Virus record (IMG/VR): IMGVR_UViG_3300046169_000092
Span: 1 to 36,011 of that record
Length of the DNA: 36,011 nt
Origin: a virus
Strand: one strand, 5' to 3'
A program made the translations under genes and the position numbers. The notes beneath the pieces are model-generated. The model worked only from the letters and a program-made list of their open reading frames with translations, was not told the DNA's origin and made no database searches. Below are positions 3,869-23,587 of the stretch, piece after piece. Numbering within the stretch: the first letter of the stretch is position 1; each line of letters opens with the position of its first letter.

Positions 3869-5062
3869 TTACGCCTTAGCTACGTTACCACGAATGTATC
3901 GTCCACCTAGATCTGGTCTGAATACTTTAGCTCCGTAAAGAACTTCGATAAGTACGTCAGCACCTGACTTGGTTTCTTCGATAGTCAATGTGTAGTTTAC
4001 GTTGTTCATTGGCTCGAAACCAGCAGCTCTACGCACGCCAGAACCTGAACCGCTATCCACTGAAGGCATAACAGCAGTTACTAAGGCAAGGGCAGATGGG
4101 TCGTAGAAGAACTGCTCACGACCAGTGTCGCCTGAAGCAATATCAACTGGGTTGATAGTATCGTTATTAGCAAGAGCAGCACGTAATGGCTCTTTAATAG
4201 TCAATACAGTTCCAGTTTGAGACTGAACAGTGTAGAAGTCATCAGTGCCTTTAGCAGAACCGAAAGTAACGATGTCACCCTCAGCTAAAGATACAGTTGC
4301 TGCACCACCACTACCATTGTCGATAGTTAGCTCAGTTTGTCCTATAGCTTCAGTAGCTGCGATAGTAGCGTCAGTTACAGTAGCAACAGTGTGGCTAGAA
4401 CCTTCGTTGTCTACGAAGAAGTCAAAACCATAAGCACGAGCCATAGCTCCACCTAACTGAATGTCAGCAGAACCACGAGTGTTGGCTTGTTGGAAGATGT
4501 TCAAAGTAGTAAGGTCTTTCTCTACGAATGGGTCAATAACCATCATTAGGTTATCAGTAGTGAACTTACGAGAAGCCATAATCTTTCTAGCTTCTGCAAG
4601 GTCATTGTCGTCCATTACAGTAGAGTCAGTGTTGTTGTCAGCGAAAGCTACTTCAAAAGCCTTACGAGCCTCAACTTTCACGTCACTATTGATTTGGTCA
4701 ATAAGCTGGTGTAGTCTTGGTACGAAGTGCTGTTGTACTAAGTCAGGAAGTGCAAACTTTTGGTCAGCCTTGTCGATGCTGAATCCAGAGTAGTAATGCT
4801 TGTTGATTACTAATTGCTCTTCGTTAGCGTCAGGAGTACCTAGAGAGTAAGAACCTGAGTAAGAGCTAGGAGCTCCAGTAGGCTTTACTGCACGAGTAAT
4901 ACTTACAGTCTTGTTACGAGCTGCAACGAGACCTTCGATAGATGCGCCAGCTACGTTAGTAACGGCTTTGGATACCATTGGTCGGTTTGGATACTGGTTA
5001 GCTAGTGCAACCTCAACAAACGCCTCTGGTTCATAAATGGAAAAATTACTATTAATTGCCAT
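3869..5062 (-). CDS. Major capsid protein (HK97 fold, P22 gp5-like with inserted domain)
   Basis: This 397-residue protein lies directly after the scaffold gene. The N-terminal segment about positions in folds (E-P-E-A-F near residue 11) and the repeated LVINKHYYSGFSIDKADQKF region (about 84-103) resemble P22-type coat proteins. About residues 215-300 form a Thr/Gly/Val-rich beta segment (AIGQTELTIDNG...) that looks like the inserted I-domain or a similar surface domain. The C-terminus (YGAKVFRPDLGGRYIRG) has the usual final strand. It would assemble the icosahedral shell with the scaffold. The start at 5060-5062 has an A/T-rich leader without a Shine-Dalgarno sequence. Confidence 0.8.
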   Translation of the reverse strand: MAINSNFSIYEPEAFVEVALANQYPNRPMVSKAVTNVAGASIEGLVAARNKTVSITRAVKPTGAPSSYSGSYSLGTPDANEEQLVINKHYYSGFSIDKADQKFALPDLVQQHFVPRLHQLIDQINSDVKVEARKAFEVAFADNNTDSTVMDDNDLAEARKIMASRKFTTDNLMMVIDPFVEKDLTTLNIFQQANTRGSADIQLGGAMARAYGFDFFVDNEGSSHTVATVTDATIAATEAIGQTELTIDNGSGGAATVSLAEGDIVTFGSAKGTDDFYTVQSQTGTVLTIKEPLRAALANNDTINPVDIASGDTGREQFFYDPSALALVTAVMPSVDSGSGSGVRRAAGFEPMNNVNYTLTIEETKSGADVLIEVLYGAKVFRPDLGGRYIRGNVAKA

Positions 5063-12342: not shown

Positions 12343-12514
12343 CGTTCCATCCGTGTTTTTTAACGTATTCCTTGATTGATTCTATCCTATTAAAGATATA
12401 GTTCGGCAATTTATCCGACATAGAAGGGATCGCATGCAGGCATTCTATGACTACTTTAACCTCCTCCAACAACTCCTCACGACTGCTTATTTCTTGCTTT
12501 TTGTGCCAGGGCAT
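12335..12514 (-). CDS. Small protein, 59 residues, first gene of the late unit
   Basis: The ORF (MPWHKKQEISSREELLEEVK ... VKKHGWNDE) is charged and mainly helical with one Cys. It starts about 20 bases after the late promoter-like element and its end overlaps the TerS-like gene by 8 bases, which supports that it is translated. No family was recognised. Its place at the head of the late operon could fit a packaging or regulatory factor, but nothing in the sequence shows this. Confidence 0.6.
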   Translation of the reverse strand: MPWHKKQEISSREELLEEVKVVIECLHAIPSMSDKLPNYIFNRIESIKEYVKKHGWNDE

Positions 12515-12535
12515 AATGGTAAAAATTTAAGTTGA

Positions 12536-12567
12536 CAAACTATAGATAGAAATTTCTAGAAATGCAA
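12536..12567 (-). promoter_or_regulatory. Late promoter, Bacteroidota type
   Basis: The minus strand carries TTG (12567-12565), 20 bases, then TATAGTTTG (12544-12536), with the first ATG 22 bases beyond. This is close to the TTG-N19/20-TAnnTTTG pattern of Bacteroidota. It follows a terminator for the previous unit (12758-12787), so it is well placed to drive the late genes. Confidence 0.5.
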
Positions 12568-12703
12568 GTCATTACGGCAGAAATCTTTATAGTTGACGGG
12601 TATTGGTGAAAATTTAGTTTTTGCGGAAGAGTTGGTAGTATAGCGCCGTTCCGTCGCCGTTTAATATGGTACCCCTCTTGCCCTGGCTCCTGGTGGCGTG
12701 GCT

Positions 12704-14865: not shown

Positions 14866-15049
14866 TGTCTTGTCTCTTAAGTTGTTGTTTTTATTAAACT
14901 TAGCACATTTTATAGGGGGCTTTGCCTCAAGTGCATACATCATGTTACGGCTTTCTGTCTTAAAATCAAAACAAAAAAGTATTTTTTTTTGATCCGGTAA
15001 AAATAGTCGGTTTTGGGTTTTGTTTTGGATCTAATAAATAAAACGGGGC

Positions 15050-15172
15050 GCACATACATTGCACATATACACATATATTGTACATATATCGCACATATAT
15101 TATACATATACACATAAATCATACATGCTTTATACATATATTATACATATACACATATATTGCACATACATC
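15050..15172. repeat. AT-rich array of about twelve ACATATAT-type units
   Basis: Units of 9-11 bases follow one another: gcacatacatt, gcacatatac, acatatatt, gtacatatatc, gcacatatatt, atacatatac, acataaatc, atacatgcttt, atacatatatt, atacatatac, acatatatt, gcacatacatc. The period is close to one DNA turn. It lies directly beside the C-rich repeats (15195-15340) and is easy to melt. An open frame through it (14940-15137, minus) translates to a repeat peptide and is not treated as a gene. Confidence 0.85.
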
Positions 15173-15194
15173 GTGCCAGGGGGGTCACCCTATA

Positions 15195-15340
15195 ACCCCC
15201 GCCGAAAATCCCCCCTAAAAATCTCTTAACCCCCCATAGAAATCCAAACCCGTCTAGCCCCCGTAGAAATCCATAAAAAAAGGGGGGCTGCCATACCCCC
15301 CGTAGAAATCTTCAATCCAATAAACCCCCCGTAGAAATTT
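15195..15340. repeat. Six C-rich direct repeats, iteron-like
   Basis: The core CCCCCCGTAGAAATC recurs with small changes at about 15195-15210 (gccgaaaatc), 15210-15223 (taaaaatc), 15230-15244 (atagaaatc), 15258-15271, 15296-15310 and 15325-15339. Spacing of the last four is about 27, 39 and 29 bases. All run in the same direction. On the minus strand the G runs could also form quadruplex structures. The fifth copy doubles as one arm of a terminator hairpin. Together with the AT-rich array it forms a candidate origin. Confidence 0.85.
15275..15301 (-). terminator. Intrinsic terminator after the O-like operon
   Basis: The minus strand reads GGGGGG - TATGGCAG - CCCCCC followed by seven Ts, a strong rho-independent terminator about 55 bases past the stop of the 76-residue gene at 15355. 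It would end the transcript that starts before 16465 and keep it out of the AT-rich array. Confidence 0.75.
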
Positions 15341-15731: not shown

Positions 15732-15777
15732 TGTGTCTTTTTGTTAATTAATGTTTGTCTCTATCTATAGTATACAC

Positions 15778-15786
15778 TTATCCACA
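15778..15786 (+). promoter_or_regulatory. DnaA box, perfect TTATCCACA
   Basis: TTATCCACA followed by AT lies in the 95-base gap after the O-like gene. Just before it is AGTATACACT (15769-15778). The same arrangement, AGTATACACT-ATCC, recurs inverted upstream of the O-like gene at 16513-16526. Confidence 0.65.
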
Positions 15787-15826
15787 ATCAATGTCAAATA
15801 AAAAGCGTACATATGTTCTGCACTTA

Positions 15827-16465
15827 CTAAAGTACATCAACGGACTTGAAGCCCTGGGTTGACCAACCGTCCGCACCTTGATCCTTGTGCTCCGGTTTAA
15901 ACCATACGCTTTGAGCCTTCTGCTTCCAACTCTTTACTGCATTGCCCCTACTATCCTTCCAATACTTCTGACGGTTACTAGAAATCGAAGCCTGGTAAAA
16001 ATCGTACATCTTGTTAGCGGCTTCTACCGTGTACCCATTGCTCGTAAAATAAGAGACAACCTCATCAAGAGTGGGGATCATCCTTTCTTTATATATAGTT
16101 TCTTTTAGGGTTTCTTTTGTGTGTGTAGTAATTCCACTAGCATCTTGTGTAGTAGCTCCACTAGGTGGTGTACTGAGTACACTAGTTACGTTATAGTTTA
16201 GGGTGATGTGCGTGGTGGTTCTATTGCTCTTCTGTGTAACAATAAATCCGAACTGCTCTAGGTCTCTAACCGCAGCTATCACGGTCTTGTTAGATACCCC
16301 TGCCAATTCCACGATCTGTGATATGCTTATGTAGTCGGATTGCTTATGCCACCCAATGGTCTTACGGCATATGGCGATAAGAACCTTAAACTGAGCCGGG
16401 CTTAGGCTCTTCATATGTTCGTCTATAATACTATTGGGGATTTGGGTGTGATTTGGAACGTCCAT
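15827..16465 (-). CDS. Phage replication protein O-like, winged-helix
   Basis: The N-terminal part (about residues 5-95) has the pattern of phage replication O proteins and related initiators: TQIPNSIIDEHMKSLSPAQFKVLIAI, then CRKTIGWHKQSDYISISQI and LAGVSNKTVIAAVRDLEQFGFI, a winged-helix that binds origin DNA. The C-terminal part (about 130-195) contains VVSYFTSNGY and the Trp-rich end KSWKQKAQSVWFKPE, resembling a helicase-loading region. It would open the origin and bring in the DnaB-type helicase. It is divergent from the early plus operon and followed by two small genes and the candidate origin. Start ATG 16463-16465. Confidence 0.65.
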   Translation of the reverse strand: MDVPNHTQIPNSIIDEHMKSLSPAQFKVLIAICRKTIGWHKQSDYISISQIVELAGVSNKTVIAAVRDLEQFGFIVTQKSNRTTTHITLNYNVTSVLSTPPSGATTQDASGITTHTKETLKETIYKERMIPTLDEVVSYFTSNGYTVEAANKMYDFYQASISSNRQKYWKDSRGNAVKSWKQKAQSVWFKPEHKDQGADGWSTQGFKSVDVL

Positions 16466-16510
16466 TGTAGTCTCATTTTTATTACTTTATTTAAGAATAT
16501 AAAAATTATT

Positions 16511-16547
16511 TTGGATAGTGTATACTTTTTTATAAATTATATCCACA
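16511..16547. promoter_or_regulatory. Divergent control region with promoter-like and DnaA-like sites
   Basis: In the 109-base gap between the O-like gene and the early plus operon, the plus strand has TTG (16511-16513) then 17-19 bases and TATAAATTAT, a weak promoter match. The minus strand has AGTATACACTATCC (16526-16513), also seen at 15769. ATATCCACA (16539-16547) differs by one base from the DnaA box and is followed by AT as in the other two boxes. The sites are visible; regulation is inferred. Confidence 0.4.
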
Positions 16548-16574
16548 ATACTTAAATTAAGAAACGAGATACAT

Positions 16575-16769
16575 ATGAGACAACACATAGACTTTATGAG
16601 GGCATTCCTATCTGGATTACGCTCCTTACCTAACCCAGACAAGTATACCCAGGCGTACATACGAGCCTTTGAGATTTGCTTGTATAGCGCTGAACGTCAA
16701 CAAAAATCTAACCACAAGACAAATGGAACAAACTTGGAATTACCGGGTACTTTCACAGAAATCCGGTGA
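16575..16769 (+). CDS. Small early protein, 64 residues
   Basis: This ORF (MRQHIDFMRAFLSGLRSLPN ...) is the first of the early plus operon, 60 bases after the DnaA-like and promoter-like sequence. The body (PDKYTQAYIRAFEICLYSAERQQ) is helical and protein-like. It overlaps the next gene by 47 bases, in a different frame. Function unknown. Confidence 0.5.
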   Translation: MRQHIDFMRAFLSGLRSLPNPDKYTQAYIRAFEICLYSAERQQKSNHKTNGTNLELPGTFTEIR

Positions 16770-18665: not shown

Positions 18666-18748
18666 TCCCAACCCTAATAATAGCCCTTATCATCGTCTCC
18701 GTGGTGGTAGGGGCTTCTTTATCATATGAAAGGAGTCAAAAATTATGA
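18662..18748 (+). CDS. 28-residue membrane peptide
   Basis: The ORF MIPTLIIALIIVSVVVGASL then SYERSQKL is almost entirely one membrane segment with a basic tail. Its start overlaps the stop of the upstream gene (ATGA) and its stop overlaps the methylase start (ATG at 18745), so it exactly fills the gap. The Shine-Dalgarno-like AAAGGAG inside it (18729-18735) serves the methylase. Such a wedge between two genes argues for translation. Function unknown. Confidence 0.5.
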   Translation: MIPTLIIALIIVSVVVGASLSYERSQKL

Positions 18749-19569
18749 TGACACACGGATCATTATTTTCAGGAATTGGGGGCTTTGATTTAGCCTCAGA
18801 GTGGATGGGATGGGATAACCTGTTTCATTGTGAGTGGGAGAGCTTTCCACGTAAAATTTTAAATTATCATTTTCCAAAATCTATATCGTATGGCGACATC
18901 AAAGAAACAGACTTCACTATTTGGCAAAGAAAAATTGACATCCTCACAGGAGGATTCCCATGCCAACCATATTCAGCCGCAGGAAAGCGACTCGGAAAAC
19001 AAGACGAGCGCCACTTGTTCCCAGAAATGCTTAGAGCAGTTCGAGAAATTCAACCACGTTGGGTCGTGGGCGAAAACGTTCGTGGGCTTGTTAGTTGGAA
19101 TGGAGGGTTGGTATTCGAAGAGGTGCAAACTGACTTGGAAGGTGAAGGGTACGAAGTACAACCGTTCCTACTTCCAGCTGCTGGCGTCAACGCCCCGCAC
19201 AAAAGGGACAGAGTATGGTTTATTGCTTACGCCATTGAGGGACGTAGCACAAATGCTTCCGACTCCAACTTGCTCGGACAAGAACGGCTCCGGATCAATA
19301 GAGTCGCTCAAGAAAAGGGGCAGGGGCGAGAACAACGATTTAGCGAGTTGGGCAACTTACAATACAAATGGGAAGAATGCTCAACTCAACCCCCTATTTG
19401 TTGCGGAGATGATGGGATTCCCAGAGAATTGGACTCTATTACCTTTTCTAAATGGAGAAGAGAATCAATTAAAGGATATGGAAACGCAATAGTCCCACAA
19501 GTTGCTTTTCAAATATTTAAAGCAATCAATCAGTATGAGCAAATCCAAAGGCAAAAGAACCGTAACTAA
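18745..19569 (+). CDS. dcm: C5 cytosine DNA methyltransferase
   Basis: This 274-residue protein has the C5-methylase motifs in order: FSGIGGF (I, 8-14), GGFPCQPYSAAGKR (IV, Pro72-Cys73 nucleophile), ENVRG (VI, about 110-114), HKRDRVWFIAY (VIII, about 152-162) and GYGNAIVPQVA (X, about 244-254). It is short, with a small target-recognition region (about 165-235). It probably methylates phage DNA against host restriction. A clear AAAGGAG lies upstream, rare in this genome. A second ORF (18890-19492) overlaps it in the +1 frame and also looks protein-like. The 3' end overlaps the next gene by 35 bases. Confidence 0.85.
   Translation: MMTHGSLFSGIGGFDLASEWMGWDNLFHCEWESFPRKILNYHFPKSISYGDIKETDFTIWQRKIDILTGGFPCQPYSAAGKRLGKQDERHLFPEMLRAVREIQPRWVVGENVRGLVSWNGGLVFEEVQTDLEGEGYEVQPFLLPAAGVNAPHKRDRVWFIAYAIEGRSTNASDSNLLGQERLRINRVAQEKGQGREQRFSELGNLQYKWEECSTQPPICCGDDGIPRELDSITFSKWRRESIKGYGNAIVPQVAFQIFKAINQYEQIQRQKNRN
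18890..19492 (+). CDS. Alternate-frame ORF inside the methylase gene, conserved type
   Basis: This 200-residue ORF lies wholly inside the methylase gene in another frame. It reads as a real protein: Ser/Gln-rich start (TSLFGKEKLTSSQEDSHANH), CSQKCLEQFEKFNHVGSWAK, MEGWYSKRCKLTWKVKGTKY, YGLLLTP..., CSDKNGSGS and LNPLFVAEMMGFPENWT near the end. I recall very similar proteins (EDSHA..., CLEQLEKFN, MEGWYST-RCKLTWK, LLPTPTASD, LNPLFVEEMMGFP) overlapping methylases in Bacteroides and phages, and the last block is a known C-terminal piece of some C5 methylases. Dual coding is likely, but translation is unproven; the memory-based similarity needs a search. Confidence 0.5.
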   Translation: MATSKKQTSLFGKEKLTSSQEDSHANHIQPQESDSENKTSATCSQKCLEQFEKFNHVGSWAKTFVGLLVGMEGWYSKRCKLTWKVKGTKYNRSYFQLLASTPRTKGTEYGLLLTPLRDVAQMLPTPTCSDKNGSGSIESLKKRGRGENNDLASWATYNTNGKNAQLNPLFVAEMMGFPENWTLLPFLNGEENQLKDMETQ

Positions 19570-19957
19570 AGCCATGGCATTCTTTCACGATAAAGGGATG
19601 ATCGTGGATGAAGTAGAGCTTGGTGGTCGCTTTAGAAAATCTAAAGACCTATTCGCTGGGTTATGCACTAAATGCTGGAAGCTAGATTGCTCGTGTAACG
19701 AGCCTAGGTTTGATGGATTCGACATCATAGCCATGGACGGTAGTAACGTTTGGCTAGTACAAATTAAGACGAACCGACCACCCACACAAAAACCCTACAT
19801 TCGTTTTGCTAAGAAGTTTGCTAGTAGGTATATTCGCATCCTTGCAATGACGTGGTACGACCGCAAAGGTTGGGTCACTCACACATTCAACAAAAATGGA
19901 ACCGTAACTAAAAGAGATTTAAGAAAAACTAATGAGAAAAAAGATGACAATAAATGA
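19535..19957 (+). CDS. PD-(D/E)XK-like endonuclease with zinc insert
   Basis: The start is set at ATG 19535 (140 residues); an in-frame ATG at 19502 overlaps the methylase more. The protein has a basic N-terminal helix, DLFAGLCTKCWKLDCSCNE (Cys44, 47, 52, 54, a small zinc knuckle), FDGFDIIAMDGS (Asp63) and VWLVQIKTN (Gln76, Lys78), the D-QxK core found in Hjc-like junction resolvases and related nucleases. A role in branched DNA resolution before packaging, or in repair, is possible (inference from core and place in the recombination module). Overlaps the next gene by 26 bases. Confidence 0.5.
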   Translation: MSKSKGKRTVTKAMAFFHDKGMIVDEVELGGRFRKSKDLFAGLCTKCWKLDCSCNEPRFDGFDIIAMDGSNVWLVQIKTNRPPTQKPYIRFAKKFASRYIRILAMTWYDRKGWVTHTFNKNGTVTKRDLRKTNEKKDDNK

Positions 19958-20171
19958 ACTGCACATACTAAAATTATTACAAGAGCAAGGAAAGGCTTCG
20001 TATAAAGACATAGAGCCTATCATGAAGATAGAGGGGCACGACAAGTATTGGACGACCTTTTCAACGATATGTAGCTTAATACAGTCAGGTGTAATGGTCT
20101 CCGATAACAAGCACCCATCTACCTATTCACTAACCTCATACGGAAGAGTTAAGGCTAAGGAAGTGATATGA
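19932..20171 (+). CDS. Winged-helix-like small protein, 79 residues
   Basis: The protein (start ATG 19932; 19944 is an alternative) has MTINELHILKLLQEQGKASY and WTTFSTICSLIQSGVMVSDN, then YSLTSYGRVKAKEVI, which matches a short winged helix with a final strand and helix. It overlaps the helicase gene by 4 bases (ATGA). It could load or regulate replication proteins; this is from position only. Confidence 0.55.
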   Translation: MRKKMTINELHILKLLQEQGKASYKDIEPIMKIEGHDKYWTTFSTICSLIQSGVMVSDNKHPSTYSLTSYGRVKAKEVI

Positions 20172-21403
20172 GCGAATTAGACCAAAGGCACTTAGAGGAA
20201 GTGCTGGTTGGTACGCTCATTGCTAATAGAGAATATAGAGAGATTATATTCAATGTAACGGACGCTACCCACTTCCCTAATCTACATCCTATTTATTTAG
20301 AAGCGTGTCAACAACACGCAGAAGGGATCTTATTTAACGAGGATACCCTGGCGGCTAAATTAGATAACTATAGCTGTGACTATCTACTTGAGCTTCAGAT
20401 GCACCAACGCACCTCTGAGCACGACATCAAAGGGTACGCTCGTATCCTGAAAGATACGGCTGATAGGCGAAGGCTAACCAAGTCCTTGACCGAGGCTACC
20501 CAGCTCGCTCATAACCCGTCCACTACGATGGATCAGTTAATGATGCAGATAGATAAGCTAAGTGGCGAGCTAGATGAGGCAACTCCAGTAGATGCTTTAA
20601 CTCCAACACAGATCTTCGAACGAGAGCAGTCTCAGCCCAAGAAAGAAAAGCTAGTAACGGGTGAATCTAAAGTGGATGACCAACTGTATCAGCACGTGGG
20701 TCTACACAAGGGCGATATAAACGTAATACTAGCCGACTCCGGGCACGGAAAGACCCAATGGTCAACGTTCCTAGCCTCTAGATTAGCGGTACAAGGCTAT
20801 CAAGGTCTGTGGTTCCAAATGGAGGATTATGACGTGAACACGGCTACACAGCTCGCTATGCAAGCGGTAGCTCACGCTGATAACGTTCGTATCGTAGATA
20901 CCACCGATGACATAGACGAAATCAAACGTCTGTGCCGTCTAGCAAAAATTGAGGGTGGTCTAGACTTCGTGGTCATTGACTACGTGCAAGAGGTCTACGC
21001 CCAGGGTAGATACGACTCGAGAACCCTGGAAATAAACTACGTAACCAAAATACTAAAGCAGATAGCCAAAGAACTTAACGTGCTGGTCATCGTGCCTAGC
21101 CAAGTTACTATCTCTGAATACAACCGATCCGGATGGCAGCTAGAGCCTAAGTATAAGGACGCTCAATGGGCACAAGTTATTAAGAACGTGGCTCATTGTA
21201 TGACCTCAGTGTTCCGACCCAACATGGTTGAGTCCCTTATCCTGATGGATGCACTTGGAAATCTAAAAGTAAAAGGGTGGAGAGATGGTGACGTTCACGC
21301 CTATGAGAGTGTGTTCGTTAAGGTTGTGAAGAGCAGGCGAGGTCAGCTTACACATGAACGCATTAAAATGATGCACCATAAAGATCTAGGGCTAAAAATT
21401 TAG
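20168..21403 (+). CDS. dnaB: DnaB-type replicative helicase
   Basis: This 411-residue protein has a DnaB N-terminal-like domain (about 1-115, MSELDQRHLEEVLVGTLIAN...) and a RecA-fold C-terminal domain: Walker A ADSGHGKT (189-196; the first Gly of the usual motif is Ala), a helicase H1a-like LWFQMED, Walker B VVIDYVQ (268-274) and VLVIVPSQV (about 306-314). It would unwind phage DNA as a hexamer, loaded by the O-like protein. It ends the overlapping early run; the SSB gene follows after 64 bases with its own promoter. Confidence 0.75.
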   Translation: MSELDQRHLEEVLVGTLIANREYREIIFNVTDATHFPNLHPIYLEACQQHAEGILFNEDTLAAKLDNYSCDYLLELQMHQRTSEHDIKGYARILKDTADRRRLTKSLTEATQLAHNPSTTMDQLMMQIDKLSGELDEATPVDALTPTQIFEREQSQPKKEKLVTGESKVDDQLYQHVGLHKGDINVILADSGHGKTQWSTFLASRLAVQGYQGLWFQMEDYDVNTATQLAMQAVAHADNVRIVDTTDDIDEIKRLCRLAKIEGGLDFVVIDYVQEVYAQGRYDSRTLEINYVTKILKQIAKELNVLVIVPSQVTISEYNRSGWQLEPKYKDAQWAQVIKNVAHCMTSVFRPNMVESLILMDALGNLKVKGWRDGDVHAYESVFVKVVKSRRGQLTHERIKMMHHKDLGLKI

Positions 21404-23204: not shown

Positions 23205-23213
23205 TGTGGATAA
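23205..23213 (-). promoter_or_regulatory. DnaA box, perfect, beside the DnaA-like gene
   Basis: The minus strand reads TTATCCACA (plus TGTGGATAA), 30 bases before the start of the DnaA domain IV gene. The flanks are the same as in the boxes at 15778 and 16539 (AAT after CAC). It may be an autoregulatory site. Confidence 0.6.
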
Positions 23214-23242: not shown

Positions 23243-23587
23243 ATGATAGCGGAAGATATTATAGATGCGGTGTGCCAAGAAACCGCCGTAACTAAAAGTT
23301 TACTATTATCTAAAGATAGAAGGCAATTTATAGTGGATGCCAGGCAAATTATTATATTTGCTATGACTCAACTTGGCTTTACTCAACAATTTATTGCAAG
23401 ACAGTTAAATTACAAGGATCATACTACTGTTCACCACCATTTAAAGAAAGATTGCTCTATTTCGCACGAGAATCGTCTTAGAGCGACTCGAATAGTAAAG
23501 CAATGTGATTATATGGCTTCTATTGAGATAAAGCGTCAGAAGTCAAATATAGAAGAGTTTTTAGAGCTAGTACAAAAAATAAATTAA
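23243..23587 (+). CDS. DnaA domain IV-like DNA-binding protein
   Basis: This 114-residue protein has the DnaA domain IV signature: DARQIIIFAMTQLGFTQQFI then ARQLNYKDHTTVHHHLKK, matching the ARQIAMYL... and GRDHTTVLHA pattern with the DHTTVHH block at 59-65 that contacts DnaA boxes. It lacks the AAA+ ATPase of true DnaA, so it can bind boxes but not oligomerise by ATP. A perfect box lies just upstream and others flank the O-like gene. It may compete with or guide host DnaA (inference). Leader has AAAGGA. Confidence 0.75.
   Translation: MIAEDIIDAVCQETAVTKSLLLSKDRRQFIVDARQIIIFAMTQLGFTQQFIARQLNYKDHTTVHHHLKKDCSISHENRLRATRIVKQCDYMASIEIKRQKSNIEEFLELVQKIN

Follow-up and report, generated by a model that had tools for sequence, protein, structure and literature searches.

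Directional repeats downstream of a phage O-like initiator gene: possible operator/terminator sites, with a candidate origin inside the gene

Do the repeats that follow the initiator gene of this phage form its replication origin, or do they serve another function? The window (the whole stretch of DNA analyzed, a 36,011-base virus record of a tailed phage) contains an O-like initiator gene that is read leftward, and recombination, helicase, and DnaA-domain-IV genes that are read rightward. Downstream of the initiator gene lie, in order, a promoter with a DnaA box, a gene for a 49-aa protein, a DUF7417 gene, a group of repeats (set B) with an embedded terminator, and an AT-rich array. The first-pass annotation took the last two elements (15050-15340) for a candidate origin in which the array melts and the repeats are six iteron-like units. 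The features of the region are listed below; promoters and terminators were called as consensus matches and are predictions.

15050-15173, no strand: AT-rich tandem array of the ACATATAT type (Tandem Repeats Finder)
15196-15210, minus: set B site 6, weak, GATTTTCGGCGGGGG
15210-15223, minus: set B site 5, weak, GATTTTTAGGGGGG, 21 bp from site 4
15230-15244, minus: set B site 4, GATTTCTATGGGGGG
15258-15271, minus: set B site 3, GATTTCTACGGGGG (GATTTCTACGGGGGC from 15271)
15282-15301, minus: intrinsic terminator, GGGGGGTATGGCAGCCCCCC-TTTTTTT, interleaved with the set B sites, at the end of the O/small-gene operon
15296-15310, minus: set B site 2, GATTTCTACGGGGGG, the only full exact 15-mer and the 5' neighbor of the terminator stem
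15325-15339, minus: set B site 1, AATTTCTACGGGGGG, at the same position in loci L003-L006
15355-15585, minus: DUF7417 gene of unknown function (PF24192, E=1e-10), directly before set B
15769-15797, minus: sigma70-type promoter of the small-gene operon, TTGACA-17-TATACT, 11/12 consensus match
15778-15786: perfect DnaA box TTATCCACA, inside the spacer of that promoter
15827-16465, minus: O-like initiator gene (Phage_rep_O, E=2.9e-14; also HTH_36)
20168-21403, plus: DnaB-like helicase gene

Much of what the first-pass annotation described is present. An array with an 11-bp sub-period and an AT content of 74% occupies the claimed place (15049-15173 in Tandem Repeats Finder, period 41 x 3.0, score 159), and the O-like gene and the terminator are where they were said to be. 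The six CCCCCCGTAGAAATC repeats are also present as placed, although they comprise four good copies, only one of them an exact 15-mer, and two weak, degenerate ones; read on the minus strand, they have a GATTTCTAC core, and their spacing is irregular (29, 39, 27, 21, and 13 bp). Four copies of the 15-mer (with two or fewer mismatches) fall within 171 bp, and 200 dinucleotide shuffles never gave more than two. One perfect DnaA box lies in the promoter spacer, and "close by" was generous for a helicase gene about 5 kb from the repeats. A search of open-access full text did not find GATTTCTAC described as a phage repeat.

If the origin were at 15050-15340, the initiator would bind the six repeats and open the adjacent array, and some features agree with this. 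The direct repeats lie near an O-like gene, and of all 100-bp stretches in the window only 16477-16576, upstream of O, is less stable than 15063-15162, within the array. Under the refutation test proposed in the first-pass annotation, the repeats hold up, as they occur in every relative that has the same O-like gene and whose contig includes the downstream gap. The melting array fails the test and is missing from the closest of these relatives. In L003, L004, and L006, whose O proteins are 89-94% identical, the repeats are shared and the sequence matches as far as CCCCCCTGGCACGATG and the array's first base, beyond which they diverge into unrelated, often GC-rich DNA. In L069, alternating GC/GT repeats (CG/GT-rich) stand at the array's place, and ACATATA-dense arrays were found in none of the fetched loci except copies of the window. 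The adjacent AT-rich element is thus not conserved, being absent or replaced by GC-rich DNA in these four loci. On the other side, AT-rich repeats of unrelated sequence occupy the same place after set B in L007, L011, L017, and L224/L225, and in several relatives an unstable element lies within about 100 bp after the repeats. We therefore do not entirely dismiss some role for an unstable element at this position; a promoter region would look alike. The AT-rich array itself is probably a neutral, recent, phage-specific repeat expansion with no conserved role, at what looks like a hot spot where simple repeats grow. Another repeat, GGGAATTTTCCCCGTC / GTGGATTTTCCCCGATCAA, substitutes for it in L003 (1660-1790), in L006 (9500-9580), and after set B in L055/L056.

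The repeat core behaves differently from the array. Our comparison set was about forty related phages; the loci are related, so that counts are not independent, and several contigs end near the region. The core clusters at three places: set A directly follows the initiator gene, set B follows the small-gene operon, and set C lies upstream of terS. In at least seven relatives an array comes right after the initiator stop codon. In 24 partly redundant loci, GATTTCTA[CT] has about 54 occurrences on the O-gene strand against two on the opposite one, and each of the four array-bearing whole records has its sites on one strand (3:0, 0:4, 7:0, and 0:4, together 18:0), with three to seven copies of GATTTYTAC per array-bearing record. 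Spacings are most often 21 bp (18 of 57), with 13, 23, 27, and others also seen; the binomial P calculated for this presupposes an independence that related loci lack. By reading, the sites of several relatives border on terminators or overlap them, and the next leftward promoter follows after about 60-100 bp; in L055-L060 and L069, the sites overlap the terminator stem.

The core is also kept when the initiator is exchanged. In L055-L073, L117, L139, L164-L180, and others, a HTH_36 / DnaD-like initiator gene replaces O, and the recognition helices of the initiators differ strongly among lineage members, yet the core is nearly constant. L223-L225, which have a third initiator type, show the same anatomy with the core shifted slightly to AATTTC[TC][AG]CC. 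Neither 24 HTH_36 relatives from outside the lineage nor five distant O relatives (L047-L051) have such a cluster. Because the core persists through initiator swaps and these out-of-lineage relatives lack it, it tracks the lineage and not the initiator family, which disfavors the initiator as its only binder. Scans for further copies gave little else: exact 15-mers occur in 19 stretches, among them several relatives, and the several single copies in unrelated contexts are probably due to chance. Of the out-of-lineage hits examined from a two-copy scan (GATTTCTAC-N3..33-GATTTCTAC), L088, L096, and L145 are repeats in coding or other contexts, and L111/L132 are a different array near a terminase region. 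The initiator cassette itself has been exchanged among at least three types in one otherwise syntenic lineage (L007 vs L060 vs L225).

A second repeat system, less than 1 kb away, does change with the initiator. The repeats within the initiator gene, like set C below, came to light only after testing of the first hypothesis, binding of the array by O, had begun, and of the many features examined we report those that held up. In the window, the relevant features within the O gene are as follows.

16167-16185, minus: candidate iteron 1, CTAGTGTACTCAGTACACC, a dyad with 14/15 positions self-complementary
16145-16164, minus: candidate iteron 2, CTAGTGGAGCTACTACACAA
16121-16140, minus: candidate iteron 3, CTAGTGGAATTACTACACAC
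16077-16117, minus: candidate unwinding element, the least stable 40-bp step of the O gene, adjoining the in-gene iterons

In nearly every relative, the linker of the initiator gene carries three to four repeats of 21-24 bp, mostly dyads with an AT-rich center; none were detected in L223-L225. Their sequence follows the initiator type: GTGTA..TACAC in O-I, GTGAA..TTCAC in O-II, and TTCAT..ATGAA or TTCGT..ACGAA in the HTH_36 types. The spacing is 21, 21, and 24 bp in the O types and 22 and 23 bp in the HTH_36 types, and as 22 and 23 are not multiples of three, repeats in the protein do not explain the latter. In the linkers of O genes, 51 of 52 serine codons are AGT, compared with 37 of 137 elsewhere. 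The repeat score was reached in three or fewer of 200 synonymous-codon shuffles in nine of 11 genes; the three copies of the window, taken alone, fail this test, as does L060. The window's O protein is 7 aa (21 bp of coding sequence) shorter than those of close relatives, corresponding to the loss of one repeat.

These properties match the layout of a lambda-type origin. In lambda and Stx phages, iterons and an AT-rich tract lie in the middle of the O gene (PMC7466680), and the linker at 16077-16185 likewise combines repeats that covary with the initiator type and an adjacent AT-rich stretch with a winged-helix-turn-helix initiator domain and a copy number that varies by whole repeats. The array at 15050-15340 differs from this pattern, as its sites are asymmetric, lie outside the gene, and do not covary with the initiator, and its AT-rich flank is not conserved. 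The HTH_36 / DnaD-type iteron origins of three out-of-lineage loci (L190, L196, and L197) resemble the in-gene candidates in their 22-24 bp repeat spacing and in lying within the initiator region or at its end; their cores differ, and they have no GATTTCTAC cluster. From these comparisons, the origin most likely lies inside the O gene, about 0.8 kb to the right of the array, and is of the lambda type: O would bind the three to four iterons and the adjacent AT-rich stretch would open, allowing replication to start as in lambda. Between 12 and 20 kb, the minimum of the cumulative GC skew falls at 16066, by the in-gene candidate but also where transcription diverges; the contig end holds the global minimum, and the skew is confounded by gene direction. 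A Foldseek search with a model of O (mean pLDDT 62) returned generic winged-helix matches only. If this assignment is true, then asking which repeats covary with the initiator is a comparative test for phage origins, one that separates initiator-specific repeats within the gene from lineage-wide sites in the gaps, two systems that are easily confused at this distance.

The third group of sites, set C, lies at the late promoter.

12539-12585, minus: set C, with GATTTCTGC at 12577-12585 and AATTTCTAT at 12546-12554
12539-12567, minus: late promoter, TTGCAT-17-TATAGT, upstream of a 59-aa gene and terS

Set C sites are found at fixed distances from terS (-243/-249, -212, and -181) and span the promoter, upstream of and between its -35 and -10 boxes; some members, such as L060, have lost one or all of the good matches. 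Sites within a promoter spacer point to transcription control. Conserved TGTCAA motifs also flank the -10 box of this region (about 12490-12620, minus strand).

Set C also bears on the origin claimed at 15050-15340. What stands of that layout is a conserved, non-random array of the protein-site type, in a replication region and with an AT-rich element beside it. The location of the origin there does not stand as well: the core is unchanged under initiator swap, the same core is carried by a late promoter upstream of terS, and the O gene holds a better candidate. Even with a modal spacing that equals two helical turns and arrays placed directly after the initiator gene in several relatives, we regard an origin at this position as unlikely. 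It is improbable, too, that the sites act in RNA, as an antitermination or mRNA-end signal; such a signal would account for the lock to the transcribed strand and for the overlap with terminator stems, but the placement of set C around the -35 box suits DNA, spacings of 21 and 31 bp are frequent, and Rfam returned no family above its gathering score.

The explanation that we favor, with roughly even confidence, is that the array is a directional operator/terminator array, somewhat stoperator-like, with a candidate binder described below, and that the origin lies inside O. The 9-bp sites, which are asymmetric and read GATTTCTAC on the strand transcribed leftward, are kept after the replication operon and at the late promoter. 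A phage DNA-binding protein on these sites, together with the embedded intrinsic terminator, would limit how far leftward transcripts of the O operon run on into the next genes, and the bound protein may also time the late operon. Against this explanation, arrays of three to seven direct repeats with a mode of 21 bp would suit iterons as well, and a place right after the initiator stop codon is a common one for origins.

The nearest known parallel is provided by the stoperators of cluster A mycobacteriophages such as L5, which are asymmetric, orientation-dependent sites at promoters and in intergenic gaps (PMC9283540, PMC6550527). Like them, the sites described here are short, asymmetric, locked in orientation to transcription, and located in intergenic gaps and at promoters, and by analogy they plausibly work in the same way. 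They differ in forming arrays of three to seven in two or three gaps, where stoperators number more than 20 and are scattered over the genome, in the embedded terminator, and in their unrelated sequence; no immunity repressor was identified. With so few sites, gathered in clusters, and no repressor identified, we do not count them as stoperators. A lysogenic repressor of the kind found in stoperator phages is without support, as no integrase was found in the five records searched.

Which protein might bind the sites? DUF7417 is absent from the array-bearing L042, L206, and L117, and the 49-aa protein was not detected in L072, L117, and L139, and so both were set aside. A further candidate is encoded beside the helicase.

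19932-20171, plus: gp79, a 79-aa winged-helix protein whose ORF overlaps the helicase start, candidate binder

This protein is kept in every lineage locus that covers the region, with a near-invariant third helix, and it is modeled with confidence as a winged helix (mean pLDDT 87.4), whose fold neighbors include MarR regulators as well as AspA and TubR, two partition proteins. On conservation and predicted fold, we nominate gp79 as a binder, which is a guess; the overlap with the helicase gene may instead reflect a helicase-related role. It is disfavored as the sole determinant, because L223-L225 keep gp79 and have shifted sites. In a more specific form of the operator/terminator explanation, which we offer tentatively, a small winged-helix protein encoded with the helicase would read one conserved directional code and couple the end of the replication operon to the late promoter, and the code would be kept while the initiator and its in-gene repeats are swapped as a cassette. 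If so, these observations point to an uncharacterized regulator in uncultured phages.

The same protein figures in two other explanations. The sites could be a control locus, acting by titration or handcuffing, for the initiator or a helicase partner, with the start in the O gene and the same protein repressing the late promoter until copies accumulate. The positions of the sites (following the initiator gene and the small-gene operon, and again at the late promoter) fit this, as do the conservation of gp79 with the sites, its overlap with the helicase start, and its AspA/TubR/MarR-like model, but in L223-L225 a gp79 with the same third helix accompanies shifted sites; we consider this control-locus explanation quite unlikely. 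Least probable, and by our estimate very improbable, is a packaging (pac) or centromere-like partition site array. Set C does adjoin terS, whose product carries an HTH, and TubR and AspA are plasmid-partition proteins, but arrays occur as far as 3 kb from terS, an unsystematic look turned up neither a partition ATPase nor a tubulin, and the gp79 model fits MarR regulators just as well.

Several other features of the window deserve mention. The gene at 3869-5062 (minus) has a P22-like coat protein match (PF11651, E=5.7e-07), which suggests a headful-type tailed phage, and the early rightward operon includes a C5-cytosine DNA methylase gene (18745-19569, plus; PF00145, E=2e-42). A host search gave a sole, partial match in a Bacteroidales MAG, too weak to use. 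The phage encodes a protein that consists of DnaA domain IV only (23243-23587, plus; PF08299, E=1.5e-14), and TTATCCACA-type boxes are found in the window at 15778-15786, 16540-16547, and 23205-23213. In many relatives, such boxes lie upstream of O, in the spacer of the small-gene promoter, and upstream of the DnaA-like gene, and most members of the other clade show this arrangement of promoter and DnaA box downstream of their HTH_36 initiator. The boxes may possibly form an autoregulated control circuit, acting through the phage protein or through host DnaA.
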